Shown here: in pieces, positions 6,588-48,263 of the stretch
Position numbering within the stretch: the first letter of the stretch is position 1
Layout of the letters: each line of letters opens with the position of its first letter
Assembly: GCF_011612585.1 (NCBI RefSeq)
Contig: NZ_CP050133.1
Coordinates: forward strand, 1,488,001 to 1,552,000
Length of the DNA stretch: 64,000 nucleotides
Reading direction: 5' to 3'
DNA from: Streptococcus cristatus ATCC 51100
GTDB taxonomy: Bacteria; Bacillota; Bacilli; Lactobacillales; Streptococcaceae
The notes under the pieces: generated by a model
What the model was told of the DNA's origin: nothing
What the model saw: only the letters and a program-made list of their open reading frames with translations
Database searches by the model: none
Translations under genes and position numbers: made by a program

Positions 6588-7946
6588 TTACTTGTCTTTT
6601 TTGACCAATTTCACGACTGCTTCGGTTCGAGCGGTATGGGGAAACATGTCAACTGACTGGATGTAGTGGACATCGTATACCTGACATAGCTTGACCAAAT
6701 CGCGCGCCAAGGTTGAGACATTGCAGGAAACATAGACCATCTTTTCAGGTGCATAGCGAACAATCATCTCCAGCAGCTTATCGTCCAGACCCGTTCGCGG
6801 CGGATCGACAATCAAGGCATTCGCTCGATAGCCCTCAGCATACCAGCGAGGAATGATCTCCTCTGCCGTTCCAGCCTCGTAGAGCGTATTGTCAAAGCCC
6901 ATCCGTTTCGCATTGCGCTTAGCGTCTTCAATGGCCTCAGGGATGATGTCCATGCCCCGCAGAGACTTGACCCTTTTAGCAAAGGCAAAGCCGATGGTCC
7001 CTACCCCGCAATAGGCATCAATCAAATGGTCTTCTTCCGTCACATCCAAAGCCCTGACCGCCTCCCCATAGAGCACCTCTGTCTGCTCAGGATTGAGCTG
7101 ATAAAAAGCACGAGGCGACAGGGAAAACTCATAGTCCAGCACACCCTCTTGAATGGCTTCCTCGCCCCAGATAATCTCTGTCTTATCCCCGTAAATCTCA
7201 CTGGACTTGCTCGTATGATAATTGACCGCTACTGTCTCCAACTCAGGAAATTCAGCCACTAGGTCTCGAACGACTGGAGAAAAGTCCAGCTTGCGCCCTG
7301 TCACAAAAATCATCTGCACCTGACCCGTCTTTCTGGCTCTGCGAATCATGACAGTGCGTACCCCAGCAGTCTTTCTCTCATCATAGATGGGCAGCCTGTA
7401 TTTACCTAAAAGCCGAGCCACCTTATTGACAATAGCCTGCGTTACCTTGTCCTGAACCAGACAGTTTTTCAGCGAGACCAGATAGTGGGAATTCTGGGCA
7501 TAAAGCCCCGCCTTAACCTCATCCTTAAATTTCCGAGTCTGAAACTGCAGCTTGGCCCGGTAATAGAGTGGCTCCTGCATGCCAATGGTTGGACGAATTT
7601 CATAGTTTTCATAGCCAGCTGGTGCAAACTTTTTCAGAGCCTGACGCAGCAAATCTTCCTTAAATTCCAATTGCTTGTCATAGTGGAGGTGCATGATTTG
7701 ACAGCCCCCGCAGCTTTCATAAATTTCACAAGGCGCTTCCACCCGAAATTTCGACCGCTTGTTGATGGTCAAGAGCTTGGCCTCGATAAAATTCCGCTGC
7801 ACCTTGGTCACCTGACAGTAGACTTCTTCACCTTTCAAAGCACCGGGCACAAAGACCAGCGTTTTCTTATAAAATCCAATTCCTTCCCCATTGATTCCCA
7901 TTTTCTTGATTTTTAGGGGAATTCTTTGCTTCACTTTTACATTCAT
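6588..7946 (-). CDS. rlmD: 23S rRNA (uracil-5-)-methyltransferase, RlmD/RlmCD type
   Basis: 452-residue SAM-dependent RNA m5U methyltransferase of the TrmA/RumA family. An N-terminal TRAM domain (about 5-65) is followed by Cys73, Cys79, Cys82 and Cys162, the four ligands of the family's iron-sulphur cluster. The SAM site ([14 protein letters not shown]), DPPRTGLD and VYVSCN with the catalytic Cys are in the C-terminal half. In Firmicutes this enzyme methylates 23S rRNA uridines; which positions is not decidable here. The ATG at 7944-7946 lies only 6 bases after TGG-TATAAT, with no room for a leader, so the mRNA is predicted to be leaderless. Divergent from the APH-like gene. Confidence 0.93.
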
Positions 7947-7952
7947 GCCTCT

Positions 7953-7961
7953 ATTATACCA
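7953..7961 (-). promoter_or_regulatory. Extended -10 promoter of rlmD, predicted leaderless
   Basis: Minus strand TGG-TATAAT (TATAAT at 7953-7958), 6 bases (AGAGGC), then ATG. Transcription would begin at or beside the start codon. Confidence 0.6.
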
Positions 7962-7986
7962 CGCTAGAGTCGATTCGTTGAGAATA

Positions 7987-7995
7987 TGTTACAAT
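7987..7995 (+). promoter_or_regulatory. Extended -10 promoter of the APH-like gene, predicted leaderless
   Basis: TGT-TACAAT (TACAAT at 7990-7995), 6 bases (AAAAGT), then ATG at 8002. No ribosome binding site exists between. Its upstream region overlaps the divergent rlmD promoter. Confidence 0.6.
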
Positions 7996-8001
7996 AAAAG
8001 T

Positions 8002-8778
8002 ATGAAAGCAGAAAAAATATCCCTTCCACTAGCCCAATTCCCTGAGCAAATCCGAACTTATCTAGAGGGAGCCAATTTTTACGACAGCTCCTCACATTCA
8101 AGCGCCCGTGTTTTCTATGCCGATACGGGCTATTATTTGAAAATTGACCAAAAAGGCAAGTTATCCCAAGAAGCCACACTTGCCAAATGGTTTGAGAAGC
8201 AAGAACTCGGTGTGCCTGTCATTCACTACCTATCAGCAGATCATGACTACCTGCTGACTAGAGAAGCCGAGGGCAAGGATGCCCTAGCCTTTCTTCAACA
8301 GCCAGAAGAGCTTTGCCAAACAATAGCTGCCGCACTCAAAAAACTTCACAGCATCCAACCCCAGCATTTCCCAATCCAGCATCGCCTCCAACACTATAAA
8401 GAGCAGGCAGAGGAAAATTATCAGAAAGGTTGCTTTTATCAAAAAGCCTTGCTGCCTCAATTTCACATCCAAAGTCGTGAGGAAGCCTACCAGCTTATCC
8501 AAGAACAGGGACACCTATTGACGACGGACGCCCTGATTCATGGAGATGCCTGCTTGCCTAATTTCATTCTGAAAGACGCTTCCACCTTCTCCTGCTTTAT
8601 CGACGTTGGTCTCGCTGGCCTCAGCGATCACCACATTGATCTTTACTGGGCGATCTGGTCTCTTACTTATAATTTATCTGACCCACAATACGCAGAGCTC
8701 TTTCTTGACTACTATGGCCGGAAGGATGTTGATACAGACAAACTTCGCTTGATAGCTGCCTTTGAAGCATTTGGCTAA
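8002..8778 (+). CDS. APH-type phosphotransferase family protein
   Basis: 258-residue protein of the aminoglycoside/choline kinase fold. The catalytic loop is HGDACLPNF (His180, Asp182, Asn187) and the metal-binding DxG is in [11 protein letters not shown]; the C-terminal layout resembles APH(3')-type enzymes. A chromosomal core location beside recX argues for a small-molecule or protein kinase of unknown substrate; resistance cannot be inferred. I chose the ATG at 8002 as the first in-frame start after the promoter; longer forms from 7891 would run into the rlmD promoter. No Shine-Dalgarno sequence is present. It probably shares a transcript with recX, 26 bases downstream. Confidence 0.8.
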
Positions 8779-8804
8779 AAGAAAGGATTTTACCAAAATC
8801 TCTT

Positions 8805-9581
8805 ATGAAAATCACAAAAATCGAAAAGAAAAAAAGACTCTACCTCTTGGAGTTGGACGACAGTGAAAAGCTCTATATTACAGAAGACACTATCGTCCGC
8901 TTCATGCTGTCTAAAGGGATGGAAATCACGGAGCAGGAGTTAAAAGAGATTCAAACTTATGCCCAATTTTCCTATGGAAAAAATCTAGCCCTCTACCATC
9001 TCTCCTTCAAGCAAAGGACTGCCAAGGAAGTTAATGACTACCTGACCCAGCACGATATCCAACCAGACGTCATCAGCCAAGTCTTGGACGCTTTGAAAAA
9101 AGATAATTGGATCAACGACAGAAAATATGCCAATTCTTATATCCAATCCAACCTTCTCACTGGTGACAAGGGCGCTTTTGTTCTCAAGCAAAAACTCAGT
9201 CAAAAAGGGATTTCTAGCACTATTATCGAAGAAGAGCTAAGACAATTTGATTTCCCTGAAGTAGCTGAGCGAGTTGCTGGGAAACTTTTAAAGAAATACC
9301 AAGGAAAGCTTCCTAGTAAAGCTTTGCAAGATAAAATCCTCCAAGCTCTGATAAACAAAGGTTTTTCCTATGGACAAGCCAAAAACGCCTATCAGCATTT
9401 GGAAATTGAAGAAGACCAGGAAAACCAGCAAGAGCTACTCTATAAAGAGCTAGACAAACAATACCGCAAGTACTCCAAAAAGTACGAGGGCTACGACTTA
9501 AAACAGCGTCTGACCCAAGCTCTGGCCCGCAAAGGCTATGATTTTTCGGACATTGCCAGCGCTCTAAGAGAATATCTTTAA
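8805..9581 (+). CDS. recX: Regulatory protein RecX
   Basis: 258-residue RecX, which binds RecA filaments and modulates recombination. It consists of repeated three-helix modules; recognisable are [28 protein letters not shown] and [15 protein letters not shown], and the repeats AKNAYQHL and [15 protein letters not shown] near the end. Length is typical for streptococci. The ATG at 8805 has its best purine-rich site (GAAAGGA) 17 bases away, which is long, so translation may depend on coupling to the upstream gene. No terminator is seen between the two genes. Confidence 0.93.
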
Positions 9582-9667
9582 GATTTTCTATGAAAACTTA
9601 GGCATTTTTATGAAAATATGTTACAATAAAGAGGATAAACTTATAAATTGTAGAAAGTTGGTAGGTT

Positions 9668-10201
9668 ATGAAACTTCCCAAAGAAGGCGACTTTATTACA
9701 ATTCAAAGTTATAAGCATGATGGGAATCTTCACCGCACTTGGCGAGATACCATGGTACTAAAGACAACAGAAAATGCCATTATTGGCGTTAATGACCACA
9801 CACTGGTAACAGAAAGTGATGGCCGGCGCTGGGTAACACGAGAGCCTGCCATTGTCTATTTTCATAAGAAATATTGGTTTAATATCATTGCCATGATTCG
9901 TGATAATGGTACTTCATACTACTGCAACCTTGCCAGCCCCTACTATCTGGACAATGAAGCCCTTAAGTATATCGACTATGATTTAGATGTCAAGGTCTTC
10001 ACAGACGGAGAAAAACGGCTGCTTGATGTGGAAGAGTATGAGCGTCATAAAAGGCAAATGAACTATTCGGATGATTTGGATTTCATTCTCAAGGAAAACG
10101 TCAAGATTCTGGTTGACTGGATCAACAACGAACGCGGTCCCTTCTCCGATGCTTATGTGAAAATTTGGTACAAACGTTATGTTGAACTAAAGAATCGATA
10201 A
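9668..10201 (+). CDS. DUF402 nucleoside tri-/diphosphatase (YgaC/Ntdp family)
   Basis: 177-residue cytosolic protein of the DUF402 fold, full length for the Gram-positive nucleoside tri-/diphosphatase family. Features include [13 protein letters not shown] at the N-terminus, the ERGPFSD segment near the C-terminus, and conserved Asp/Glu residues in [11 protein letters not shown]. Family knowledge: metal-dependent hydrolysis of nucleoside tri- and diphosphates. An extended -10 (TGT-TACAAT at about 9616-9624) lies upstream, this time leaving a leader of roughly 35-40 bases. A clean terminator follows the stop. Confidence 0.85.
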
Positions 10202-10209
10202 AGTTGTCA

Positions 10210-10229
10210 AAGAGCGCAAGCTCTTTTTT
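10210..10229 (+). terminator. Rho-independent terminator after the DUF402 gene
   Basis: AAGAGC-GCAA-GCTCTT followed by a run of T. Confidence 0.85.
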
Positions 10230-10388
10230 CTTGCTTTCTTTCTCAAAAATCCTTTGTCTAGCAAGGAAGCAATTTCTTGCAATTCCTACTTATTTCTTGT
10301 ATGATAGAACCATCAATGCTGCTAGTAAAGCACTAGAGGACCAATTTCTGCTCCTCCATAGCAAAATTTCCAGAAAGGAGTGAGTCTC

Positions 10389-10706
10389 ATGGCTTTTACC
10401 AATACTCGTGGTCGCTATGCCAGCTTTGGCGCTATCACTAGCCTCCCAGATGATGTGATTGACACTTTCTGGTACATCATCGACAACTTCCTTAAAGATG
10501 TTTTCCCTTTGAATAATCTGATTCGCTTCGAATTGATCAATAACGAAGGGAAGCTGACTTTTCGTTTTTCAGAGGACCATCTCGATACACTCATCTCCTT
10601 TGATTTCACCTATAAATTTGACCCGTTCTATCCTCGCATGATCTACGTTGTGGATAATAACGGCAGAGAGACGGTCATGTTAGCCGATGAATACTCCATG
10701 TTTTAA
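10389..10706 (+). CDS. DUF960 family protein
   Basis: 105-residue protein of the DUF960 family, which is largely confined to lactic acid bacteria and has no known function. It starts MAFTNTRGRYASFGAITSLP and ends ADEYSMF, as the family does; it looks like a compact alpha/beta cytosolic protein. The ATG at 10389 is preceded by AAAGGAG at good spacing; an in-frame GTG at 10380 lies within that site and is less likely. A monocistronic gene with its own terminator. The 180 bases upstream show no clear element beyond short AT-rich stretches. Confidence 0.85.
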   Translation: MAFTNTRGRYASFGAITSLPDDVIDTFWYIIDNFLKDVFPLNNLIRFELINNEGKLTFRFSEDHLDTLISFDFTYKFDPFYPRMIYVVDNNGRETVMLADEYSMF

Positions 10707-10712
10707 GAAAGC

Positions 10713-10766
10713 AAAATCCAGTTGAGACACCGTCACTATGAGCGGTTTTTCAACTGGATTTTTTTA
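10713..10766. terminator. Bidirectional terminator between DUF960 and GNAT genes
   Basis: AAAATCCAGTTGA pairs with TCAACTGGATTTTTT across a loop of about 24 bases; an A-run on one side and a T-run on the other serve both convergent genes. Confidence 0.85.
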
Positions 10767-11198
10767 TTTTTTGTAAATCATTTTGATATGAGGCGTCGAT
10801 TCAAAGATAAAGGGTTCTCCTTGACTTACAAAGCCGAATTTTTCATAAAGCCCCATGACTTGTTCCTGAGCTTCAATCTCAATCATTTTTCCCGGCCACT
10901 TTTTCTCACAAAGAAGCAAGATTTCCTCTACCAATCTATTCCCTAGGCCCTTTCCCCGGGCTGACGGGGCCGTCACAAGTCGACCAAAAACGACTTTTTC
11001 ATCTTCCTCAAACACGCGAGCATAGGCCTCTACTTCCTCTTGTTTATTAACATGAAAAATGTGAACAGCTTTTAAGTCTTTTTCATCCAATTCATGGTAG
11101 ATTCGCTCTTGCTCGACGACAAAGATATCGATTCGCAGTTTTAAAAGCTTGTAAAACTCTAGCGTGTCCAACTCTTGCAAATATTTTTTATACCACAT
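10764..11198 (-). CDS. GNAT acetyltransferase, ElaA family
   Basis: 144-residue single-domain N-acetyltransferase. The ElaA-type start (LRIDIFVVEQERIYHELDEKD) and the acetyl-CoA loop (VTAPSARGKGLGNRL) are visible; YEKFGF marks the C-terminal strand. The substrate is unknown. ATG at 11198 with AAGGA about 10 bases before it. The gene is divergent from marR and the two promoters face away from each other in the 60-base gap. Confidence 0.88.
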   Translation of the reverse strand: MWYKKYLQELDTLEFYKLLKLRIDIFVVEQERIYHELDEKDLKAVHIFHVNKQEEVEAYARVFEEDEKVVFGRLVTAPSARGKGLGNRLVEEILLLCEKKWPGKMIEIEAQEQVMGLYEKFGFVSQGEPFIFESTPHIKMIYKK

Positions 11199-11200
11199 AC

Positions 11201-11229
11201 TTGTTTCCGTCCTTGCTTTATTATATAAT
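11201..11229 (+). promoter_or_regulatory. marR promoter
   Basis: TTGTTT (11201-11206), 17 bases, TATAAT (11224-11229). The -10 runs directly into a MarR-type operator, consistent with autoregulation. Confidence 0.7.
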
Positions 11230-11247
11230 CATTGTAAATGCAACTAT
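11228..11247. promoter_or_regulatory. MarR operator, upstream copy
   Basis: Twenty bases ending TTGTAAATGCAACTAT. They match the palindrome downstream of marR at 17 of 20 positions and cover the transcription start. Confidence 0.6.
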
Positions 11248-11260
11248 CAAAGGAGTTCTT

Positions 11261-11686
11261 ATGGATTATCGTCAGTTATTTCGTCAAATGGGATTCATCT
11301 CTCGTCAAGCCATGATGAGAATGAACCAAGAAGCTAGCCAATACGGGCTTGATAATAATCTCTTTCTCATTCTTACTCGCATTGTTGAACATCCTGCCAT
11401 CCATCAATCCCAGCTGGCAGAGCTGGTTCAGATTGACAAGACTACCCTAAGCCGGTCTCTAAGAAAGCTGGAGGAAAGAGGCTTGATTGTCAAAAAGACC
11501 AAAGCTCAAAACAAGAAGTTCAAGGAGCTCTATCCACTGACTCCTGCACTAAAAGTATATGATAAGCTGATTGGCTACGAGGACAGATATATTCAGGCTA
11601 GTCTGCATAAACTGACTTCATCTGAACTCTTTCAGTTGGATCATATCTTACAGAAAATTCAGAGCTCCCAACAAGAAGAAGTATAA
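11261..11686 (+). CDS. MarR family transcriptional regulator
   Basis: 141-residue winged-helix regulator. The DNA-recognition region is QSQLAELVQIDKTTLSRSLRKLEERGLIVK (shown in parts: HPAIHQSQLAEL, KTTLSRSLRKLEERGL) and the wing KKTKAQNKKFKELYPL. I use the ATG at 11261 after AGGAG; the longer frame from 11201 runs through promoter and operator. The same palindromic operator occurs at its own promoter and just after its stop, so it probably represses itself and once controlled a neighbour. The ligand is unknown. Confidence 0.9.
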   Translation: MDYRQLFRQMGFISRQAMMRMNQEASQYGLDNNLFLILTRIVEHPAIHQSQLAELVQIDKTTLSRSLRKLEERGLIVKKTKAQNKKFKELYPLTPALKVYDKLIGYEDRYIQASLHKLTSSELFQLDHILQKIQSSQQEEV

Positions 11687-11692
11687 CACAAT

Positions 11693-11712
11693 ATAGTTGC
11701 ATTTGCAACTAT
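11693..11712. promoter_or_regulatory. MarR operator, downstream copy
   Basis: ATAGTTGCA-TT-TGCAACTAT, a near-perfect 20-base palindrome directly followed by TTGACA at 11713-11718. No intact gene follows in that direction. Confidence 0.6.
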
Positions 11713-11725
11713 TTGACACTAAAAA

Positions 11726-11808
11726 CTAAAGCTATTAAAAGCGGCTGCTTGCAAGTAACTGAGAAGACACCCTCGTCTCTGCATGCAAAACCGCCTTAAT
11801 AGCTTTTT
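11726..11808. terminator. Long bidirectional hairpin between marR and the ABC-F gene
   Basis: AAAGCTATTAAAAGCGG pairs with CCGCCTTAATAGCTTTTT, enclosing about 45 bases that can fold further (TTGCA/TGCAA; GAGA/TCTC). It serves as terminator for both convergent genes and overlaps the ABC-F stop codon. It is larger than usual for a terminator. Confidence 0.75.
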
Positions 11809-13348
11809 AAGTTAGTTGATTGAAATCCCAGATCTGATCCATCCAGCCTTCATAGAAATCAGGCTCGTGGCAAACCATGAGAATGCTGCCCTTGTATTCT
11901 TTCAGAGCGCGTTTGAGCTCTTCCTTAGCATCTACATCCAGGTGGTTGGTCGGCTCGTCCAGAACCAGAACATTATTTTCTCGGTTCATGAGAAGACAAA
12001 GGCGGACCTTGGCCTGCTCGCCACCTGAAAGAACCTGAATCTGACTCTCAATATGCTTGGAAGTCAAGCCACATCTAGCCAGAGCCGCTCGGACTTCTGC
12101 TTGATTTAGAGCTGGAAAGGCATTCCAAACTGCTTCGAGCGGTGTCTGACGATTGCCGCCTTCCACTTCCTGCTCGAAATAGCCCAGTTCTAAATAGTCT
12201 CCGCGCTCGACTTCCCCAGCGATTGGTGGGATAATACCTAGTAGACTCTTAAGAAGAGTGGTTTTTCCGATCCCATTTGCCCCGATGATAGCCACCTTCT
12301 GATTGCGCTCAAAAGTCAGGTTAAGAGGCTGAGTTAGAGGCCGGTCGTAGCCAATCTGCAAATCCTTGGCTTGGAAGATAAAGCGGCCAGGTGTACGGGC
12401 AGGCTTGAAATTGAAGGATGGTTTTGGTTTCTCACTTTGCAGCTCAATAATGTCCATCTTATCGAGTTTCTTTTGGCGAGACATGGCCATATTACGGGTC
12501 GCCACACGAGCTTTATTACGAGCTACAAAGTCCTTGAGGTCTGCAATTTCCTTCTGCTGACGCTCATAAGCTGCTTCCAGCTGAGATTTTTTCATCTCAT
12601 AGACTTCTAAGAATTGGTAATAATCCCCAGAATAGCGGGTCAACTGCTGATTTTCCACATGGTAGACGATATTGATCACATCGTTCAAGAAAGGAATATC
12701 ATGGGAGATCAGGACAAAGGCATTTTCATAGTTTTGGAGGTAACGCTTGAGCCAATCAATGTGCTCCGCATCCAGATAGTTGGTTGGCTCGTCCAAGAGC
12801 AGGATATCCGGTTTTTCCAGAAGCAATTTGGCCAAGAGAACCTTAGTACGCTGTCCGCCAGATAGCTCTGTCACATCGCTTTCCATACCGTAGTCCATGA
12901 CGCCCAGAGCCCGTGCGACCTCGTCAATCTTGGCATCTAGCGTATAGAAATCCCGGCTCTCCAAGCGGTCCTGCAGTTCGCCTACTTCTTCCATCAGGGC
13001 ATCCACATCCGCTCCATCCTCAGCCATGCTCATATAGATTTCATTGATACGGGCCTCAGTCTTGAACAGCTCGTCAAAAGCTGTCCGCAGCACATCGCGG
13101 ACAGTTTGGCCCTGCTCCAATACAGCATGCTGGTCCAAATAGCCAGCCGTCACATACTTGGACCACTCGACCTTACCTTCGTCCGGCAACATTTTGCCCG
13201 TCACAATGCTCATAAAGGTCGACTTCCCTTCACCGTTGGCACCAACCAGACCGATATGCTCTCCCTTGAGCAGACGGAAGGATACATCCTCCAAAATAGC
13301 CCGGTCCCCAAAACCGTGGCTGAGATTTTTTACTTCTAAAATACTCAT
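11807..13348 (-). CDS. ABC-F family ATPase (YkpA/YbiT-like)
   Basis: 513-residue cytosolic protein with two ABC ATPase domains and no membrane segment. Domain 1 has GANGEGKST and LSGGQRTKV with LLLDEPTNYLD; domain 2 has GANGIGKTT and LSGGEQAKV with LVLDEPTNHLD. The linker (about residues 230-300) is charged and helical, as in ABC-F proteins that act at the ribosomal E site. Length and motifs fit the YkpA/YbiT branch; this is a translation factor-like member and not a transporter. The start MSILEVKNL at 13348 follows AGAGGAGAAAAG; the longer frame from 13411 lacks support. Confidence 0.92.
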   Translation of the reverse strand: MSILEVKNLSHGFGDRAILEDVSFRLLKGEHIGLVGANGEGKSTFMSIVTGKMLPDEGKVEWSKYVTAGYLDQHAVLEQGQTVRDVLRTAFDELFKTEARINEIYMSMAEDGADVDALMEEVGELQDRLESRDFYTLDAKIDEVARALGVMDYGMESDVTELSGGQRTKVLLAKLLLEKPDILLLDEPTNYLDAEHIDWLKRYLQNYENAFVLISHDIPFLNDVINIVYHVENQQLTRYSGDYYQFLEVYEMKKSQLEAAYERQQKEIADLKDFVARNKARVATRNMAMSRQKKLDKMDIIELQSEKPKPSFNFKPARTPGRFIFQAKDLQIGYDRPLTQPLNLTFERNQKVAIIGANGIGKTTLLKSLLGIIPPIAGEVERGDYLELGYFEQEVEGGNRQTPLEAVWNAFPALNQAEVRAALARCGLTSKHIESQIQVLSGGEQAKVRLCLLMNRENNVLVLDEPTNHLDVDAKEELKRALKEYKGSILMVCHEPDFYEGWMDQIWDFNQLT

Positions 13349-13417
13349 CTTTTCTCCTCTATCATTGATTGCAGTTCCTTGATTATACCATCTTAGGAAG
13401 CCAATTGGCAAGAAAAT

Positions 13418-13600: not shown

Positions 13601-13603
13601 ACT

Positions 13604-14260: not shown

Positions 14261-14293
14261 GAGAAGCCTCCTCTAGTTTCTTTTTCTAATCTT

Positions 14294-14331: not shown

Positions 14332-14450
14332 CGGTTTTCTCTTATGTTTTCAAAATTTAGAAAAATCAGGCAGGCTACCTATAAAAAAGTTAGATTCGCC
14401 TATGAGAAAACGAGGGGGAATATTTGACCCAACCTCGCTTTAGCCTATCT

Positions 14451-27584: not shown

Positions 27585-28133
27585 TTATTTTCCTTTTAAT
27601 TTCTCAATCATAACCAAAAAAGGCGGGTTGTTAATCTGATTGATGGTCTTGTAAAGGGCGACAGTAAAGTCCTGCTGGGGCAGCTGACTGACGAAGTCTA
27701 GCACCGCATCTTTTTCAACTTCACCACCTTCATGCCCGTAGTAAATCATGATAGCTGCACGGCCACCTTTTTCTAAGCCTCGGCAGACCTTTTCCAAAGC
27801 TTCCAGCGTCGTATCTGGTCGGGTAATGACAGACTTGTCCGCCGAAGGCAGGTAGCCCAGATTAAAAATCGCTGCCTTGAAATGGTCTGTGTATTGGTCC
27901 AGAGTCTCATGGCCAGCCAAGATTAGCTGAGCATTGTCCATGCCAGCTTCTGCTAAGCGCTGGCGAGTCTTGTCCACAGCCTGCTCCTGAATGTCAAAAG
28001 CATAGACTTGCTTGGCCAACTTAGCCAGAAAAAGGGTATCATGTCCATTGCCCATAGTAGCGTCCACTACAACATCTTCCTTGGTCACGACTTCTGCCAA
28101 AAATTCATGAGCCATCTGTAAGGGTCTTAACAT
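27585..28133 (-). CDS. mnmM: tRNA 5-aminomethyluridine methyltransferase MnmM (YtqB)
   Basis: 182-residue class I SAM methyltransferase. The N-terminus MLRPLQMAHEFLAEVV and motif I (VDATMGNGHDTLFLA, about 24-38) plus FNLGYLPSADKSV match the YtqB family, shown in Bacillus to complete the mnm5 side chain at tRNA U34. Overlaps the upstream mnmL gene by 7 bases, so the pair is co-translated. A decayed partial copy of this gene lies at 39672-39812. Ribosome binding site lies within mnmL. Confidence 0.88.
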   Translation of the reverse strand: MLRPLQMAHEFLAEVVTKEDVVVDATMGNGHDTLFLAKLAKQVYAFDIQEQAVDKTRQRLAEAGMDNAQLILAGHETLDQYTDHFKAAIFNLGYLPSADKSVITRPDTTLEALEKVCRGLEKGGRAAIMIYYGHEGGEVEKDAVLDFVSQLPQQDFTVALYKTINQINNPPFLVMIEKLKGK

Positions 28134-29065
28134 ACGAATTTCTGCTCCTTTGCTTTACAGCCTTGCTTGCTGCCACGACGGCGCATTTCTGCCTCAATGG
28201 CATTGAGAACTTCCCATTTATTGAGGCTCCACATAGGGCCAATCAACATGTCTCGCGGAGCATCGCCTGTGATACGGTGGATGACGATATGTTCGGGGAT
28301 AATCTCCAACTGGTCGCAGATGATGGAGACATATTCCTCCTGACTGAGTAGCTGCAGCCGTCCCTCATGGTAATCCCGTTGCATACGGGTATTGGTCATC
28401 AGGTGAAGCAGGTGAAGCTTGATTCCTTGAATGTCATTGTCCGTCACACAGCGGCGGACATTCTCTAGCATCATCTCATGGGTCTCTCCCGGCAAGCCGT
28501 TAATCAAGTGAGAGACAATCTCCGTCTTGGGAGCCAGCTTACGAACCTGCTGGACTGTTTCCACATAAAGCTCATAAGAATGGGCACGATTGATGAGGTC
28601 CGAGGTCTCCTCATAGGTAGTCTGAAGCCCCAGCTCTACAGTCACATGCATACGCTCAGACAGATCAGCCAAGTAGGCGATGGTCTCGTCAGGCAAGCAG
28701 TCAGGCCGAGTCCCGATATTGAGACCAACGACGCCAGGCTCGTTAATGGCCTGTTCATAGCGCTCACGGATCACCTCAAGCTTCTCATGGGTATTGGTGA
28801 AGTTCTGGAAATAAACCAGATACTTGCGAACATCCGGCCACTTGCGGTGCATAAAGTCAATTTCCTTATAGAACTGCTCGCGAATGGGCGCATCCGGCGC
28901 CACAATGGCATCACCAGAACCCGAAACGGTACAGAAAGTGCAGCCTCCATGCGCCACGGTGCCATCCCGATTGGGACAGTCAAAGCCCGCATCAATGGGC
29001 ACCTTAAAGGTCTTTTCTCCAAAAAGTTTTCGATAATAATCATTCAAAGCATTGTAAGATTTCAT
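28127..29065 (-). CDS. mnmL: Radical SAM protein MnmL (YtqA, TIGR01212 family)
   Basis: 312-residue radical SAM enzyme. Cys30, Cys42 and Cys45 (FDCPNRDGTVAHGGCTFC) bind the 4Fe-4S cluster; the arrangement resembles Elp3-like proteins. GDAPRDMLIGP near the C-terminus is a family hallmark. YtqA homologues act with YtqB/MnmM in tRNA wobble-uridine modification in Gram-positive bacteria. I use the ATG at 29065 (MKSYN). An upstream ATG at 29074 falls inside the -10 box. The start lies 7 bases after TGG-TAGAAT, so the mRNA is predicted leaderless. Confidence 0.87.
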   Translation of the reverse strand: MKSYNALNDYYRKLFGEKTFKVPIDAGFDCPNRDGTVAHGGCTFCTVSGSGDAIVAPDAPIREQFYKEIDFMHRKWPDVRKYLVYFQNFTNTHEKLEVIRERYEQAINEPGVVGLNIGTRPDCLPDETIAYLADLSERMHVTVELGLQTTYEETSDLINRAHSYELYVETVQQVRKLAPKTEIVSHLINGLPGETHEMMLENVRRCVTDNDIQGIKLHLLHLMTNTRMQRDYHEGRLQLLSQEEYVSIICDQLEIIPEHIVIHRITGDAPRDMLIGPMWSLNKWEVLNAIEAEMRRRGSKQGCKAKEQKFVC

Positions 29066-29072
29066 ACCTTCC

Positions 29073-29102
29073 ATTCTACCACAAAAAGGAGCCTAGAAAC
29101 AA
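29073..29102 (-). promoter_or_regulatory. Extended -10 promoter of mnmL, predicted leaderless
   Basis: Minus strand TTGTTT (29097-29102), 18 bases, with TGG-TAGAAT (TAGAAT at 29073-29078); ATG follows 7 bases later. A purine-rich GGAAGG lies between but is too close to the ATG to act as a normal ribosome binding site. Confidence 0.55.
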
Positions 29103-39812: not shown

Positions 39813-39833
39813 TTACTACTTCATTTAAAACAA

Positions 39834-39868: not shown

Positions 39869-41478
39869 TTAGCATAATCAACTGCTCGCATTTCGCGAAT
39901 GACTGTGACCTTAATATTTCCTGGATATTCCAAGGTGTTTTCAATCTTTTCACGCACATCATGTGCCAAGATTGTAATCTTGTCATCCTTGATTTTCTCT
40001 GGACTAACCATAATTCGGATTTCACGACCTGCCTGAAGGGCAAAGCTTGTCTTAACCCCTTCAAAGCTATTTGCAATTTCTTCCAAATCTTGCAATCGCT
40101 TGATATAGCTTTCCAGCGACTCACTACGAGCTCCCGGACGAGCTGCGCTCAAGGCATCCGCTGCTGCAACGATGACTGCAATGACGCTCTCAGGTTCCAC
40201 ATCTCCGTGGTGGCTAGCAATGGTATTGATAACAACTGGATGTTCCTTATACTTGCGAGCCAACTCTGTTCCGATTTCCACGTGGCTGCCTTCTACTTCT
40301 CGGTCGATAGCCTTACCAATATCATGGAGGAAACCAGCACGGCGAGCCAAGTTCGCATTTTCACCCAATTCTCCAGCGATAACTCCAGCCAATTTGGCAA
40401 CCTCAATCGAGTGACGGAGAACATTTTGCCCGTAAGAAGTACGGAACTGCAAGCGACCCATAATCTTCATCAAATCAGGATGCAAGTTTGGTGCTCCAAT
40501 TTCATAAGCTGCGGCTTCACCATACTCTCGAATACGATTGTCAATCTCTAAGCGATTCTTTTCGACCAATTCCTCAATACGAGCCGGATGGATCCGACCA
40601 TCCTTAAGAAGAGCTTCCATAGTCATCCGAGCAATCTCACGGCGAACTGGATCGAAACCTGAAAGAGTAACCACTTCAGGCGTATCATCAATGATAACAT
40701 CAATCCCTGTCAAGCTTTCAAAGGTTCGAATATTGCGACCTTCACGTCCGATAATCCGTCCCTTCATGCTGTCATCAGGAAGATGAACCGTTGAATTGGT
40801 CTGTTCAGCCACATAGTCACCAGCAATCCGCTGCATAGCTTGAACCAAGATATCCTTGGCCACCTTGTCCGAACGCTCTTTGATATCCTGCTCTGCTTCC
40901 CGAATACGAGTTGCAATTTCCTTGGACAGCTTGTCCTCGGTCTTGGTCAAGATAATCTCACGCGCTTCCGTCTGAGTCAGGGATGCTACCCGCTCAAGCT
41001 CAGCTTCTTTTTGCTGCTCTAGCTCAGCTACTTGTGCTTCACGCGCATCAATGTGTTTAGCTTTATCAGTAAGACTTTGTTCTTTGTGCTCCAAAGTCTT
41101 TTCCTTGTTGGTTAAATTATCATCTTTGCGGTCAAGACTACTTGCGCGCTCTGTCAAGCGGCTTTCAATTTGTTTTAACTCTTGACGCTCAGACTTAAAT
41201 TCTGCATCAACCTCTTCACGATATTTTCTGGCTTCTTCTTTTGCCTCCAAAAGTGCTTCTTTTTTAAGCGAACTGGTTTCGCGCATCGCTTCTTTGACAA
41301 TCAAATCCGCTTCGCGTTCTGCCTGACCGCGTAAATTGGTTGCTTCTTGTTCAGCATTTAAAAGAGTAAGTTCCGCAGCTTCTTTAGATGCTTTCATCTT
41401 AACCGCGATTCCTACATACCCAATCACTAAACCAATGATGGCAGCAAAAACAAAAGCAGCTATCGTATATAAGCCCAT
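39865..41478 (-). CDS. rny: Ribonuclease Y
   Basis: 537-residue membrane-anchored endoribonuclease that starts mRNA decay. An N-terminal transmembrane segment (about 3-25), a long Glu/Lys-rich coiled coil (about 30-220), a KH domain ([18 protein letters not shown], about 230-260) and an HD domain ([20 protein letters not shown]). Length is typical. ATG at 41478 after TTTGGAGTAAAAAC. A decayed mnmM copy lies downstream of its terminator. Confidence 0.96.
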
Positions 41479-41708
41479 GTTTTTACTCCAAATCTATTTA
41501 ATTATTGAATTCAAAATTCCTTTTTATTCTATCATAAATAGTAGAAATTCACAAATCAATTTTTTGAAAAAGAAGGCCGTTTTTTGCCTATTATTGGGCG
41601 AAAAGGCGCTAAATCAAAGAATTTAATATATAAAATTTTTTTATTTCCTAACTCTTATTTTTTTATGCTATAATCAAAAGGAAGTGTTTGAAATGTCGCT
41701 TTTGAAAC

Positions 41709-41735
41709 CTGATCTCATTTTCAGGTTCCAATTTT
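41709..41735 (+). promoter_or_regulatory. Hairpin in the luxS leader
   Basis: AACCTGA and TCAGGTT pair across about 9 bases in the 5' leader after the TATAAT at about 41672-41677. No T-run follows. Function unknown. Confidence 0.35.
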
Positions 41736-41755
41736 AAAATTTTAAAGGAGAAATC

Positions 41756-42238
41756 ATGTCTAAAGAAGTTATCGTTGAAAGTTTTGAGCTTGACCATACA
41801 ATCGTAAAAGCACCCTATGTTCGCCTCATTGGCGAGGAAACTGGTCCCAAGGGAGATATTATCTCTAACTTTGATATTCGTTTGGTGCAGCCAAATGAAG
41901 ACTCTATTCCGACGGCTGGCCTGCATACCATCGAGCATTTGCTGGCTATGCTTATTCGCAAGCGAATTGACGGTATGATTGACTGCTCACCTTTTGGTTG
42001 CCGCACAGGCTTCCATATGATTATGTGGGGACAGCACTCAGCAACCGAAATTGCTCAAGTCATCAAATCTTGCTTAGAAGAAATCGCTGAAACGACTACT
42101 TGGGAAGATGTCCCTGGTACTACTATCGAATCCTGTGGCAATTACAAGGATCACAGCCTTTTTTCTGCCAAAGAATGGGCGAAACTCATTCTCAGCCAAG
42201 GAATCTCTGACAATGCTTTCGAGCGCCATGTCCTCTAA
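41756..42238 (+). CDS. luxS: S-ribosylhomocysteine lyase LuxS
   Basis: 160-residue metalloenzyme that splits S-ribosylhomocysteine into homocysteine and DPD, the precursor of AI-2. Metal ligands His57 and His61 (HTIEH) and Cys127 (IESCGNY); catalytic Cys82 in FGCRTGFHM. Complete. ATG at 41756 after AAAGGAGAAATC. It serves the activated-methyl cycle as well as signalling. Convergent with ritR across a terminator. Confidence 0.97.
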
Positions 42239-42293
42239 GCAGAGGGATTTTAATCTTCTAGAATTTTATTATTTGCGCTAAAAATGAAAAAAA

Positions 42294-42332
42294 TCAACCC
42301 GCCCTTCTGGAAACAGAGGGCGGGTTTGTTCT
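42294..42332. terminator. Bidirectional terminator between luxS and ritR
   Basis: AACCCGCCC and GGGCGGGTT around a loop of about 13 bases, with AAAAAAT on the left and TTTGTT on the right. Confidence 0.85.
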
Positions 42333-42334
42333 TA

Positions 42335-43024
42335 TTATTCCTGCATAGCATAGCCGATACCACGGACAGTTTTGATATAGCTGGTCTGTCCAGCAACATC
42401 AATCTTACTACGTAGGTAGCGAATATAGACATCTACTACATTAGTTTCAGTGGCACCTTCATACTTCCAGACACGTTCTAGAAGTTGCTCGCGACTCATG
42501 ACTTTTGGACTACTCATCAGCGTCACTAATAGATCATATTCTCGTCGTGTCAAGGCAATCACTTCCTCTCCACGATAGACGATATGATTTTTCAAATCAA
42601 CTCGTAGATTGCGGTAAGCAGTCGGTGTTTTTAGCTTGCTACAATGCTGGTCAATAAAGTCCCGACCTCGAAAGATATCGGATACTTTCTCAACCAAATC
42701 GCTGATAATAAAAGGTTTGACGGTATAGGAAACAGCAAAGCGCTGAATCTCATCTGCATGTTCTTTGATCTCTTCACGGCTGGCTAAGACGATAATGACT
42801 GAGGCCGGCTTGAATAAACTCAGTTGCCTAGCAAACTCACTAGCAGTCATATCCTGCAGGTCATAATTAAGCAAAAATAGATCATAGTCATTTTCTCTAG
42901 CTAGTGCCAAACCTTGACTTCCTGTCTCAATTACATCCAAAAGAAATGCTTCCTTTTGCAGTTCCAAAGTCACAAATCGTGCAAGATTCTTTTCATTTTC
43001 TACTAATAAAATTCGCTTTGCCAT
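42335..43024 (-). CDS. ritR: Orphan response regulator RitR
   Basis: 229-residue OmpR-type regulator without a kinase partner. The usual phospho-acceptor Asp is Asn53 (FLLNYDL), and Cys128 lies in the linker helix (DFIDQHCSK), exactly the two hallmarks of pneumococcal RitR, which senses redox state through Cys128 and represses iron uptake. The DNA-binding domain (about 135-228) has LTRREYDLLVTLM and the wing RGIGYAMQE. Next to gnd as in pneumococci. ATG at 43024 after AGGATAGGCCT. Confidence 0.95.
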   Translation of the reverse strand: MAKRILLVENEKNLARFVTLELQKEAFLLDVIETGSQGLALARENDYDLFLLNYDLQDMTASEFARQLSLFKPASVIIVLASREEIKEHADEIQRFAVSYTVKPFIISDLVEKVSDIFRGRDFIDQHCSKLKTPTAYRNLRVDLKNHIVYRGEEVIALTRREYDLLVTLMSSPKVMSREQLLERVWKYEGATETNVVDVYIRYLRSKIDVAGQTSYIKTVRGIGYAMQE

Positions 43025-43033
43025 AGGCCTATC

Positions 43034-44458
43034 CTATTTTTCGTCATACCAAGAGTAGTGGAAGGTTCCTTCTTTGTCTTTACGTTGGTAAGTGTGGGCA
43101 CCAAAGTAGTCACGTTGTGCTTGGATCAAGTTAGCAGGAAGGTCTGCTGAACGATAGCTATCAAAGTAAGTAATAGCTGCTGAGAAGGTTGGTACTGGTA
43201 CACCAGCTTGAACAGCAAGAGCTACGATATCACGCACTGCTTGTTGGTATTTAGCAGTAACATCCAAGAAGTACTCATCCAAGAGAAGGTTTGCAAGGTC
43301 TGCATCACGGTTGTAGGCATCTGTGATCTTTTGCAAGAAACGAGAACGGATGATACAGCCATCACGCCAGATAGATGCGATATCCGCAAATGGCAAGTTC
43401 CAGTTGTTTTCTTTAGAAGCCACACGTAATTGGGCAAAACCTTGTGCGTATGAAATGATTTTTGAGAAGTAAAGGGCTTGACGAATCTTTTCGATCAACT
43501 CAGCCTTGTCTCCTTCAAACTTGAAGGCAGCTGGTTTTGGAAGCACCTTGCTAGCATGTACACGCTCTTCTTTGTAAGTAGAGATATAACGGGCAAATAC
43601 GGACTCAGTGATCAGTGACAATGGCACACCAAGGTCAAGTGATGATTGGCTGGTCCATTTACCAGTTCCCTTGTTACCTGCAGCATCAAGGATGTAGTCT
43701 ACGATTGGTCCATCTTGCCCTTCATCGTCTTTACGGCTCAAGATATCAGCTGTGATTTCGATCAAGTAGCTATCAAGCTCGCCTTTATTCCACTCAGTGA
43801 AGATTTCAGCCATGTCTTCTGCAGAAAGACCAAGCAAGTGTTGCATGAGGTCATAGCTTTCTGCAATCAATTGCATATCACCATACTCGATACCGTTGTG
43901 GACCATTTTCACATAGTGACCAGCTCCGTCAGGACCGATGTAAGTCACACATGGTTTACCATCTTCAGGTGCTTTAGCTGAGATTTCTTCGAGAACATCA
44001 GCAACCAATTCGTAGGCTTCTTTTTGTCCACCAGGCATGATAGAAGGACCTTCAAGGGCACCTTTTTCACCACCAGAAACACCAGTTCCGATAAAGTTAA
44101 TGCCTGAGTTTGCCAATTCTTCATTACGACGGATTGTATCTTTATAGAAAGTGTTTCCGCCGTCGATCAAGATATCGCCCTTGTCAAGGTGTGGAAGAAG
44201 GGCTTGGATAGTTGCGTCTGTACCAGGTCCAGCTTGAACCATGAGCATGATACGGCGAGGTTTTTCAATGGATTGAACGAAAGACTCTACATCGTAGCTT
44301 GGAACAAATTTCTTTTCAGGATGGCAAGCGATTACGTCTTCTGTTTTTTCTTTACTACGGTTGTAAATGGCAACTGTATAACCACGAGATTCGATATTTA
44401 GGGCAAGGTTACGACCCATTACGGCCATACCTACGACACCAAAATTAGCTTTTGTCAT
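43034..44458 (-). CDS. gnd: 6-phosphogluconate dehydrogenase (decarboxylating)
   Basis: 474-residue enzyme of the pentose phosphate pathway that makes ribulose-5-phosphate, CO2 and NADPH. NADP loop [15 protein letters not shown] (about 7-21), substrate signature [16 protein letters not shown] (about 184-199), KGTGKWTS (about 260) and the C-terminal tail. Complete. ATG at 44458 after ATAGGAGTAGAAA. Nine bases upstream of ritR, so the two are probably co-transcribed, linking NADPH supply and redox regulation. Confidence 0.97.
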
Positions 44459-44620
44459 TTTCTACTCCTATAGACTTAGTTGTTTAATCTGTTATATTTT
44501 AACATTTTTACATGGTAATGAAAAGTATTTAGCTGATAGAAATGCTTTTCTGTGGGAGGATACGCAAACAGCCAGAAGTTGCAACTCCCAGCTGTTTGGA
44601 TATCATAGATACATTTGGAT

Positions 44621-46084
44621 TTATTTCTCATCAACTTCGATGATCGCTTGTTCATCTTGTTTGAGCTTGTTGACAGTCATATTGACACCAAGTGCTCCAG
44701 CTAACAGTTGACGAATGTCAAAGCCTGCTCCTTGGGAAACTTGGTCAATGCTCTGCATGATGTCGCCGACCATTTTAGAAGCGTTGCCTTCACCATACAT
44801 AGTAATCTTGTCTACCTTGGTCAATGGCTCTGCTACCGCACGAGCGATTTCTGGCAGTTTATCGACAATCATCTCCGTAATCGCAGCTTCCTGCATCTTC
44901 TTCATGGCTTCGGCTTTCTTGTCCAAACCTTGGGCTTCCGCTTCTAGTTTAAGACGAATGGCTTCCGCTTCTGCACGTCCTTTGGCTTCAATAGCTTCTG
45001 CTTCTTGCAGTTGCGCAAATTTCTCAGCCTCGGCTTGAGCCTTGCGGGCTTCGGCTTCTTTTTGTGTTTCAAAGAGTTCCGCTTCGGCCTGACGCTGACG
45101 TTCAATCAATTGCGCTTCAGCAGCCTGTTGACGGGCATATTTTTCAGCTTCGGCTTGCTTGCGGATATTGGCATCCAATTCCTGCTCACGGACCTTAACT
45201 TCCCGTTCTTTGACTTCCGCTTCCTTTTCCTGCTTCATGATGTTGGCTTCTGCTGCCACACGTTCTTGTTCACGACGCTGGATTTCAGCCTCAATCCCTT
45301 TAGCCGCGTCAGCTTTAGCTTGTGCGATATCTGCTTCCTGCTTAAGGGCTGCTTGTTTCAGTTTGAGTTCATTTTGCTTTTGAGCAATTTCCAAGTCAGC
45401 AGCCACGCGCTTGTCGTTAGCCAACTTGTCCTGCTCAGCTTCAACTTCCTTACGCTCACGTTCAGCCTTCGCCTTGGCAATCAAAGCGTCTTTCTTGATC
45501 GTTTCGACATTTTCGATACCGAGATTGTCAATCACGCCACCTTCGTCAGAGAAGGATTGAACGGTAAAGGCAATGACTTCCAGACCCATCTTAGCCAAAT
45601 CTGGCGCCACGTTATCTTGCACTTTAGAGGCAAATTCCTGACGGTCATTGACCATCTTGCGCAGTTCCATCTGTCCGATTACCTCACGAAGGTTCCCTTC
45701 GAGAACATCTTGGACAGAGTTGGAAATATCTGTTGTGTTCCAATTAAGGAAGTTTTCTGCCGCACGCTCAATCATTTCATCCGTAGTACCAATCTTCAGC
45801 TTAACAGCTGCATCGGCACGAACGTTGATAAAATCAAGCGTTGGCACAGACTCAGAAGTACGGACGTCTGTAGAAAACTGCTCAATATCCAGATAAGAGC
45901 GCTGCTCTACAAAAGGAATCATGAAGCCAGCCTTACCTCTTAAATGACGCTGCTTACGCAGACCAGTAATAACGACTACTTCATTTGGCTTAGCATTGAC
46001 ATAGCCCTTAGCCAAAAGAATAATAAGCACAATGGCTGCAACGATTGCAAAAATCAACCAGCCTGGGATAAATAACATATCCAT
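44621..46084 (-). CDS. Flotillin-family (SPFH) membrane scaffold protein
   Basis: 487 residues: an N-terminal hydrophobic anchor (about 5-28, GWLIFAIVAAIVLIILLAKG), an SPFH/band-7 domain (about 40-190) and a long Ala/Glu-rich coiled coil (about 215-400, many EAE and AEAE repeats), then a C-terminal region (MYGEGNASKMVGDIMQ). This is the FloT/YuaG architecture; flotillins organise membrane domains and fluidity. ATG at 46084 after AAAGGAAGTTTCT; the frame up to 46111 has no better start. Single gene; a hairpin follows at 44560-44600. Confidence 0.9.
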   Translation of the reverse strand: MDMLFIPGWLIFAIVAAIVLIILLAKGYVNAKPNEVVVITGLRKQRHLRGKAGFMIPFVEQRSYLDIEQFSTDVRTSESVPTLDFINVRADAAVKLKIGTTDEMIERAAENFLNWNTTDISNSVQDVLEGNLREVIGQMELRKMVNDRQEFASKVQDNVAPDLAKMGLEVIAFTVQSFSDEGGVIDNLGIENVETIKKDALIAKAKAERERKEVEAEQDKLANDKRVAADLEIAQKQNELKLKQAALKQEADIAQAKADAAKGIEAEIQRREQERVAAEANIMKQEKEAEVKEREVKVREQELDANIRKQAEAEKYARQQAAEAQLIERQRQAEAELFETQKEAEARKAQAEAEKFAQLQEAEAIEAKGRAEAEAIRLKLEAEAQGLDKKAEAMKKMQEAAITEMIVDKLPEIARAVAEPLTKVDKITMYGEGNASKMVGDIMQSIDQVSQGAGFDIRQLLAGALGVNMTVNKLKQDEQAIIEVDEK

Positions 46085-46220
46085 AGAAACTTCCTTTCTT
46101 TTCCAGAGCAATAGACGAATGCATTGCCCAAATATATTTTTAGTTAGTATATCAAAAAATTAACAGTTTGCAAAACTTTTACTGCTACTCCTATCCAACT
46201 TCCAAAATTCCCCCTCAAAC

Positions 46221-46264
46221 AAAAAAAGATAGCCCCCATTCATTGAGGAAACTATCCATCTTTT
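46221..46264 (-). terminator. Terminator of the BI-1 family gene
   Basis: GATAG...CTATC stem with a purine-rich loop, followed on the minus strand by TTTTTTTG. Confidence 0.7.
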
Positions 46265-46265
46265 A

Positions 46266-46949
46266 TTAGTCATTTCTTCCAAAGATGCGAAGGATGCTGA
46301 GGAAGAGGTTGATAAAGTCAAGGTAGAGGCTCAAAGCTAGAGAAATAGCCCAGCCAAGACCTGCCTGTCCACCCGTTTGCTCATAAACGTAGCGAATTTT
46401 TTGATTGTCCCAAGCAATCAACCCTGCGAAAATGACGACGCTGACGTAGCTGACAATATAGTCTATCATGTCGCTACCGAGGAAAATATTGACAAAACTT
46501 GCGATCACAATCCCAATCAAACCTGCAATCATAGCTCGGCCCATGCCAGATAAATCTTTTTTAATGATGACGCCCATGGCTGCCATGACAAGGAAAACAG
46601 CCGCACTAACTGCAAATGCTTTGAAGACCACGCCTCCTGTGTACATGGCCACAATGAAACTCATGGTAAATCCGTTTAGGGCTGAGTAGCTCAAAAAGAG
46701 AGGAAGAGCAGCTGGACTATTACGAAGTCCTCTGCTGGAAGCTGACCAAACCAAGGCCAGCTCAATAAAGATAGCTCCATAGTAAATCCAGCTATAATGG
46801 AGCAAAATCTCAACTAGAGCTGTCTGGAAGGTCGTCAGCATTAAGCCTGAAACCAGAGCAGAGATGGCAATTCCCATCCCAACAAATCCGTAGACCTTAG
46901 AATAAAAACTAGAAAGTCCACTGTTTTCTTGAATAATTGTATTGTTCAT
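46266..46949 (-). CDS. Bax inhibitor-1 family membrane protein
   Basis: 227-residue protein with seven hydrophobic segments, matching the BI-1/YccA family: YGFVGMGIAISALVSGLML near the start, SFIVAMYTGGVVFKAFAVSA in the middle, and LDFINLFLSILRIFGRND at the end (the family's C-terminal signature with Asp). Members are pH-sensitive calcium leak channels or protease modulators; function in streptococci is not established. ATG at 46949 after AAGGAGGCATT. Confidence 0.9.
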   Translation of the reverse strand: MNNTIIQENSGLSSFYSKVYGFVGMGIAISALVSGLMLTTFQTALVEILLHYSWIYYGAIFIELALVWSASSRGLRNSPAALPLFLSYSALNGFTMSFIVAMYTGGVVFKAFAVSAAVFLVMAAMGVIIKKDLSGMGRAMIAGLIGIVIASFVNIFLGSDMIDYIVSYVSVVIFAGLIAWDNQKIRYVYEQTGGQAGLGWAISLALSLYLDFINLFLSILRIFGRND

Positions 46950-46968
46950 AATGCCTCCTTTTTACATT

Positions 46969-47460
46969 TTAACTTTTCATCATCTTTCGATGATACTTTT
47001 TACGCCCACTTAGCTTTTTTCGCCAAGGTGCCGTCGCTTCTTTGATCGCCCAATACTTGTCCACCATGGTCACAACGAAGGACTCCTTGTAGCGGGGTGG
47101 TGCTAAGGTCGCTCCCCACATGTGCTTGATGATAATATCTTCCTCAACTCGATTGAGCTTGGTAATCTTGCGGGCATTTCGGACTGCTAGGCGGGGATGT
47201 ACCCAAGCATGACTCTTTTTAAACTTGGTTTCGCGCCAGTCATAATAAAATAGATCATGCAGAAGAGCACCTCGTGCCGTACTGCGGGCGTTCCAGCCAA
47301 ATTTTTTAGCAATTTTATAACTAGTAAAACTGACATTGATTGAATGTTCAAGCCGATTGGAATGAATATGATGCGTAATTCCTTTTAAGCGTTGGACGCT
47401 AGGCTTCTCAATCAAATGCCCCACATAAGCCATAAATTCATCATCTTCTCTGTAAGGCAT
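46969..47460 (-). CDS. HD-domain phosphohydrolase-like protein
   Basis: 163-residue cytosolic protein with an HD motif: RLEHSINVSFTSYKIA supplies the first His, GALLHDLFYYDW the HD pair, and HPRLAVRNA a further His. HD proteins hydrolyse phosphate esters of nucleotides; substrate unknown. ATG at 47460 after GGAGGTGATAT. It lies 19 bases upstream of the BI-1 gene and shares its direction. Confidence 0.87.
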   Translation of the reverse strand: MPYREDDEFMAYVGHLIEKPSVQRLKGITHHIHSNRLEHSINVSFTSYKIAKKFGWNARSTARGALLHDLFYYDWRETKFKKSHAWVHPRLAVRNARKITKLNRVEEDIIIKHMWGATLAPPRYKESFVVTMVDKYWAIKEATAPWRKKLSGRKKYHRKMMKS

Positions 47461-47504
47461 ATCATCACCTCCATTTAGTTTTATTATAGAGAGATTTCTA
47501 AAAG

Positions 47505-48245
47505 CTAGCTTAAAGCAAACATCAGAATGCCAGCTGCCACAGCAACGTTAAGACTTTCAGCCTGCCCCTTCATGGAAATGTGAACCAGAACATCAGCCGC
47601 ATCCGTTATTTCTTGGCTGATTCCTTGCCCTTCATTACCCATGACTAGAAGGAAATCCTCATGTTTTTCGACCTTTTGATAATCCACAGAATCTTCTGAT
47701 AAGGTCGAAGCCAGAATTTGCAGGTCACTTTGACGAGCTAGGGCCAGCATATCCTCTCTGCTCACGCGATAAATGGGCAGATGAAAGTGGCTCCCCTGCA
47801 TAGAACGCAAGGTTTTGAGATTGTAAATGTCAGCGGAGTGACTAGAGATGAAAACTCCTTGATAACCCGCCGCATCCGCTGTTCGGATGATGGTTCCGAC
47901 ATTGCCAGGATCCTGCACATCTTCTAAAAAGAGATAGGCACCTTCCAACTTTTCTGGAATCGTTTGCTCCTCAAAGGCTAATTCTGCAACGATTCCCTGA
48001 GGGGTCTTGCTATCTGCCAAATCACTGAGAATCTCTGGACTGACAAAAATCGTCTGGGAAAATGCTGCCAAGCGCTCTTCGTACTCTGCCAAGGCAAAAA
48101 TTCGCAGAATCCGTGCCTGACTGGCCAGAGCCTCCTCAAAAAGATGCCAGCCCTCAATCAAATACGACTCGCTACGATATTTTTTTTGATGCAGCTTTTT
48201 AGCTTTTTTTACCACATTATTGGCTTTTGAGGTTATAATATTCAT
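47505..48245 (-). CDS. TrmH/SpoU-family RNA 2'-O-methyltransferase
   Basis: 246-residue SPOUT methyltransferase. An N-terminal substrate-binding domain (about 1-75) and a knot domain with LEDVQDPGNVGTIIRTADAA, LRSMQGSHFHLPIY, VMGNEGQGIS and MKGQAESLNVAVAAGI, all canonical. It probably methylates 23S rRNA or tRNA ribose; the target is not known. I use MNIITSKANN at 48245; the ATG is 6 bases after TGT-TATAAT, so the mRNA is predicted leaderless and the longer frame to 48323 is not transcribed. Confidence 0.9.
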   Translation of the reverse strand: MNIITSKANNVVKKAKKLHQKKYRSESYLIEGWHLFEEALASQARILRIFALAEYEERLAAFSQTIFVSPEILSDLADSKTPQGIVAELAFEEQTIPEKLEGAYLFLEDVQDPGNVGTIIRTADAAGYQGVFISSHSADIYNLKTLRSMQGSHFHLPIYRVSREDMLALARQSDLQILASTLSEDSVDYQKVEKHEDFLLVMGNEGQGISQEITDAADVLVHISMKGQAESLNVAVAAGILMFALS

Positions 48246-48251
48246 AAATAC

Positions 48252-48260
48252 ATTATAACA
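48252..48260 (-). promoter_or_regulatory. Extended -10 promoter of the TrmH-like gene, predicted leaderless
   Basis: Minus strand TGT-TATAAT (TATAAT at 48252-48257), 6 bases (GTATTT), then ATG. Confidence 0.6.
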
Positions 48261-48263
48261 CAA

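Follow-up and report, generated by a model that had tools for sequence, protein, structure and literature searches.

A predicted class of leaderless genes in Streptococcus, marked by an extended -10 box 6 or 7 bases upstream of the start codon

In bacteria, leaderless mRNAs have their AUG at the 5' terminus or beside it and lack a Shine-Dalgarno (SD) sequence; the -10 box from which they are transcribed lies 6-7 bases upstream of the start codon. In this work we analysed a 64,000-nucleotide stretch of the Streptococcus cristatus ATCC 51100 genome (the window; positions 1488001-1552000 of 2.03 Mb), in which four genes have the pattern TGN-TANAAT-N6/7-ATG, an extended -10 box followed by 6 or 7 bases (N6, N7) and the ATG. 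An earlier note on this DNA had listed these four sites, proposed that the mRNAs should start at the AUG, and suggested that the class consists mostly of RNA-modification enzymes and could be a coordinated set responding to stress. All four sites are exact in the sequence.

Two of the sites face each other. On the minus strand, rlmD (6588-7946) encodes a 23S rRNA uracil-5-methyltransferase of the TrmA/RlmD family (TIGR00479, 441 bits, cut-off 183.6), 97-99% identical to RlmD of S. cristatus, S. sinensis and S. sanguinis. Its predicted leaderless start reads TGGTATAAT-AGAGGC-ATG, with the -10 box at 7953-7961 and the ATG at 7944-7946. On the plus strand, with 55 bp between the two ATGs, a gene for an APH-fold kinase (8002-8778) is preceded by TGTTACAAT-AAAAGT-ATG (box at 7987-7995, ATG at 8002-8004). 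The closest relative of the kinase in the PDB is an aminoglycoside phosphotransferase (1e-19), and its NF033068 score of 140.6 bits lies under the APH(3') cut-off of 205; judged by this score it is an APH-like protein and not a confirmed resistance gene. Downstream of it lies recX (8805-9581).

The third gene, mnmL or ytqA (28127-29065, minus strand), encodes a radical SAM tRNA-modification protein (TIGR01212, 341.8 bits, cut-off 180) and is the one with a seven-base gap, TGGTAGAAT-GGAAGGT-ATG (box at 29073-29081, ATG at 29063-29065). A second in-frame ATG, with its first base at 29074, falls inside the -10 box and cannot start translation of this transcript. A putative rRNA/tRNA methylase gene on the same strand (27585-28133; PF06962 'Putative rRNA methylase', 169.6 bits), which we take to be MnmM/YtqB, has a 7-base overlap with the end of mnmL and thus probably shares its leaderless transcript. 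The fourth gene (47505-48245, minus strand) encodes a SpoU/TrmH-family RNA 2'-O-methyltransferase, for which the best NCBIfam model is RlmB (120.4 bits, cut-off 160) and the PDB relative is an 'rRNA methylase' (7qiu, 5e-46); its start reads TGTTATAAT-GTATTT-ATG (box at 48252-48260, ATG at 48243-48245). As the earlier note had stated, none of the four gaps holds a usable SD sequence: the purine runs AGAGG (rlmD) and GGAAGG (mnmL) end just 1 base before the ATG. The N6 pattern was found three times in the window against 0.25 expected, a count reached in none of 100 shuffles. The N7 pattern was found once against 0.26 expected, and since 24 of the 100 shuffles did as well, the mnmL site taken alone is not beyond chance.

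Across the whole genome, TGN-TANAAT-N6-ATG occurs 36 times and the N7 form 26 times, compared with 2 and 4 occurrences of the respective reversed patterns. The reversed pattern was dropped as sole baseline, because an ATG at arbitrary offsets from the promoter motif also exceeds it (16 versus 1 at N5, 15 versus 5 at N8 and 16 versus 5 at N12). We used the N5, N8 and N12 spacings and the corresponding GTG/TTG patterns instead, and against the off-spacing level the excess at N6 and N7 together amounts to about 30 sites. The same peak was found in 40 Streptococcus genomes, with 1728 matches at N6 (43.2 per genome) and 1186 at N7 (29.6 per genome), compared with 712 at N5 (17.8), 758 at N8 (18.9) and 593 at N12 (14.8), which leaves an excess per genome of about 25 sites at N6 and about 12 at N7. 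The scan over distances of 5-8 bases that the earlier note had asked for thus gave an excess at 6 and 7 over 5 and 8. In these genomes GTG/TTG at N6 was found 733 times against 408 for the control, and this ratio of 1.8 is below those of ATG at the off-spacings (2.6 at N5, 4.0 at N8, 3.5 at N12), so the excess at N6 is specific to AUG. The wider scans covered 398 genomes of the phylum and 198 of the order as site counts; the 171 genomes from other families of the order gave a weak excess (mean of 12.7 at N6 versus 6.0). Streptococcus shows the class strongly and the other families of the order less so. Among the 62 N6 and N7 sites of the S. cristatus genome, 41 have an open reading frame (ORF) of at least 57 residues starting at the ATG and were taken as candidates; 20 have shorter ones, and one (L035), lying inside a gene, was excluded.

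The anatomy of the starts was studied in a sample of 344 kb of the genome, comprising 14 hand-picked stretches, 11 of them within the first 1.04 Mb, and the window. A first gene caller with a bonus for leaderless starts (201 genes) was replaced by a simple one without it, whose 286 genes cover 76% of the sample. The distance from TGNTANNAT to the called start is bimodal: seven genes lie at 6-7 bases, none at 8-16, and a distant group begins at 17 with a broad mode at 27-31. An SD sequence is present in none of the seven close-spaced genes versus 58 of the 72 distant ones. mnmL is absent from the seven, the caller having chosen the wrong ATG. A -35 box does not distinguish the groups (mean of 3.0 of 6 matches in leaderless versus 3.3 in leadered genes, p = 0.14); the extended -10 box, whose TGN was built into the search motif, occurs here without need of a good -35.

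Among 40 gene starts of the class, 37 have a C or T directly ahead of the ATG, compared with 7 of the 22 ATGs at which no gene begins (p = 9e-7; L046 was also dropped from the candidates here) and with 34 of 65 starts of leadered genes (p = 8e-6). When two other species are added, the figures become 94 of 100 versus 18 of 46, orthologues not being independent. Bacterial RNA polymerase usually initiates at a purine (+1) preceded by a pyrimidine (-1), and the pyrimidine before these ATGs points indirectly to a transcription start at the A of the ATG. These data also bear on the possibility that the promoters merely lie close to an ATG and that translation begins at a downstream in-frame start with an SD sequence, on mRNAs with short leaders. 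By eye this is probably true of one candidate, PepF (L046), and behind several N6 sites an ORF in another frame begins 19-37 bases downstream (L018, L023, L025, L030, L057, L059). As an account of the class it would leave unexplained why the enrichment is confined to AUG and the -1 pyrimidine to ATGs at which genes start. Moreover, the alignments of RlmH, MurT and YlxM to their closest family profiles begin at residue 1 and profile position 1, although among the starts checked RsmD, unlike these, aligns only from profile position 13. We regard this explanation as very unlikely.

The spacing is conserved in relatives. For rlmD, 119 relatives were found and 80 loci kept, and in all 80 the extended -10 box lies exactly six bases from the ATG (half of them read by eye), as strict TGNTANAAT in 40 loci and as TGNTAAGAT, read by eye, in the other 40. 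The loci form two groups with differing upstream sequence, and the six spacer bases vary. In the second group (L090, L147 and similar loci) the TAAGAT -10 box six bases from the ATG has a divergent TATAAT next to it, which in turn stands about 6 bases away from an ATG (by eye). Of the 31 best matches for rsmD, 30 were examined, with 28 at spacing 7, one at 6 and one at 10. For rlmH, 50 of 54 matches were examined and 36 have the -10 box at 6-8 bases: all 14 Streptococcus loci (spacing 6, 13 with TGN), all 11 loci of one sister genus, and 11 of the 25 remaining loci of the family. In the diverged genome G012, 20 of the 34 ORFs behind N6 sites match the leaderless set of S. cristatus, 17 of them at 57-90% identity and one at 43%, while two (32% and 25%) look like paralogues; in a further genome, G024, 19 of 26 ORFs match. 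An SD-like rlmH start was seen in all five loci of the genera g325 and g327 of the same family (L226-L229, L268), which suggests that individual genes gain or lose leaderlessness.

Leaders might also have been lost through genome compaction, in genes that sit in short or divergent intergenic gaps. The upstream neighbour is indeed divergent for 21 of 39 leaderless genes compared with 16 of 69 leadered ones (p = 0.002), and the closely facing ATGs of rlmD and the APH-like gene would fit this idea. However, with medians of 116 versus 162 bp (p = 0.06) the upstream gaps of leaderless genes are not clearly shorter, and a leader of about 25 bases would fit in front of most of these genes. Compaction is therefore not a sufficient explanation; the spacing of 6-7 is also kept where the flanks change. 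We consider this explanation improbable.

The sequence evidence, namely the peak at 6-7 bases, the missing SD, the AUG-specific excess, the -1 pyrimidine and the conserved spacing, backs the prediction that these mRNAs start at the AUG, and makes it very probable that a few dozen genes form a real, genus-wide leaderless class, which we read as a stable architecture for low-abundance housekeeping genes. From these features we infer that the housekeeping sigma factor would recognise the extended -10 box, TGN-TANAAT, and RNA polymerase would begin on the A of the start codon, giving an mRNA with AUG at its 5' end and no SD sequence. Leaderless mRNAs are generally initiated by 70S ribosomes, and this would be expected here. 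The architecture would most likely be kept because it gives stand-alone housekeeping genes, with RNA-modification enzymes well represented among them, an expression that is steady, low and unregulated.

Several points weigh against this reading. Since the motif exceeds the reversed control at off-spacings too, some of the 41 candidates must be chance occurrences. The gene starts come from a simple caller that covers 76% of the 344 kb and missed the start of mnmL. For PepF the actual start is probably 15 bases downstream and preceded by GGAGG. The leaderless architecture is lacking in 14 of the 50 rlmH loci of the family, seven of which have an SD-like match (three in genus g325, two in g327 and two in g328). 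Finally, low-level housekeeping expression, the most likely reason for the architecture, is suggested by the identities of the genes.

As for these identities, RNA-modification enzymes make up 12 of the 41 candidates, and 9 of the 37 outside the window, versus 2 of 55 controls (Fisher p = 5e-4 and 0.004), the two sets being labelled from different libraries (NCBIfam for 40 candidates and Pfam only for L052; Pfam for the controls, three of which had no match). The controls were genes with the same extended -10 box and a leader, 55 of the 72 in the sample lying outside the window; their two RNA-modification members, MnmA and MnmG, come from one stretch. A hypergeometric test on guessed totals of RNA-modification genes was not used. 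Seven members score above curated cut-offs: RlmH, an RluA-family synthase, TruA, TsaE, RlmD, RsmD and MnmL. Others below the cut-offs are named by their best relative, namely RsmC-like, SpoU/TrmH-like and RlmI-like methyltransferases, and the weakest cases are a U32/TrhP-like protein with no PDB relative and a TrmN-like methyltransferase (PrmC 57 bits, TrmN 55), the PDB relatives of which are labelled 'methyltransferase' or hypothetical. Without these two the proportion outside the window is 7 of 37 (p = 0.02); with curated matches only it is 7 of 41 overall (p = 0.03) and 4 of 37 outside the window, which is not significant (p = 0.17). Compared with the same controls, G012 has at least 8 of 34 (p = 0.006) and G024 at least 9 of 26 (p = 0.0004), both overlapping in genes with the S. 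cristatus set; these are lower bounds, as among the unmatched ORFs (14 in G012, seven in G024) only RlmB and RsmG were identified further. Counting the three genomes together, 14 different RNA-modification families have a leaderless member in one or more of them.

The remaining 29 of the 41 candidates have other or unknown functions, with members as diverse as LigA, PolA, RuvB, RnhC, PBP2A, FtsK, MurT, PlsY, PabB, HemW, YlxM, an ABC-F protein, Hsp33 and regulators. The earlier description of the class as mostly RNA-modification enzymes thus holds for the window, where they account for three of the four genes, but genome-wide they are a minority of about three in ten; they appear over-represented, which supports that description in part. 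DNA repair was considered as another enriched class and rejected, no bias being seen: LigA, PolA, RuvB and RnhC are leaderless, but MutL, RecA, UvrA, a HhH-GPD glycosylase and a MgsA-type ATPase are leadered.

The over-representation, seen in the whole set and outside the window, in G012 and G024, and across the 14 families, could reflect a functional circuit in which altered, under-modified or stressed ribosomes favour AUG-first mRNAs, so that RNA-modification enzymes are made when most needed. In its full form, streptococci would conserve some 30-40 leaderless genes, among them those for RlmH, RlmD, RsmD, the RluA-family enzyme, TruA, TsaE and MnmL (RsmG or RlmB in other species); the synthesis of these enzymes from AUG-first mRNAs would track the state of the 70S pool, so that the quality of the ribosomes would feed back on RNA modification. 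We give this form little credence. Against such a circuit stand the curated counts and those without the two weakest names, the many members with other or unknown functions, the leadered MnmA and MnmG, and the SD-led rlmH of two other genera of the family. Retention as leaderless genes in G012 is also about equal, 7 of 12 for RNA-modification enzymes versus 12 of 29 for the others (p = 0.49), the latter including a MarR matched at 25% identity only. The circuit therefore seems unlikely to us, and the coordinated or stress-responsive set of the earlier note is not supported so far, most members being unrelated housekeeping genes and retention being no higher for RNA-modification enzymes.

What sets the predicted class of conserved leaderless genes apart from the bacterial leaderless mRNAs known to us is that its few dozen members belong to an SD-using Firmicute, are linked to an extended -10 box and are kept gene by gene across the genus, with RNA-modification enzymes over-represented among them. 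Sabelnikov and colleagues reportedly described in 1995 pneumococcal extended -10 promoters, for example that of the DpnII operon, with transcription that begins at the start codon or close to it. Those promoters are alike in having TGN-TATAAT without need of a good -35 box, but the present set consists of chromosomal housekeeping genes throughout the genus and not of one operon. For leaderless genes in a medically important and mostly SD-using genus, the analysis yields a gene list and a sequence rule, namely TGN-TANAAT-N6/7-ATG in which the base before the ATG is a pyrimidine. If the enrichment in RNA-modification enzymes is true, feedback of the state of the ribosome on the enzymes that modify rRNA and tRNA becomes testable.

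Two arrangements in the set may be added. The genes for the RluA-family pseudouridine synthase and PBP2A are divergent neighbours, each of them a leaderless candidate (174277-174433; L003, L033), as also seen in G012 (L160). At L057 and L059, and at sites in the genomes G008 and G017, the ATG behind the -10 box opens an ORF of 4 or 12 codons just before an SD-led gene, and the site is identical in near relatives; these are possibly tiny leaderless upstream ORFs, or the identity may just reflect close kinship.

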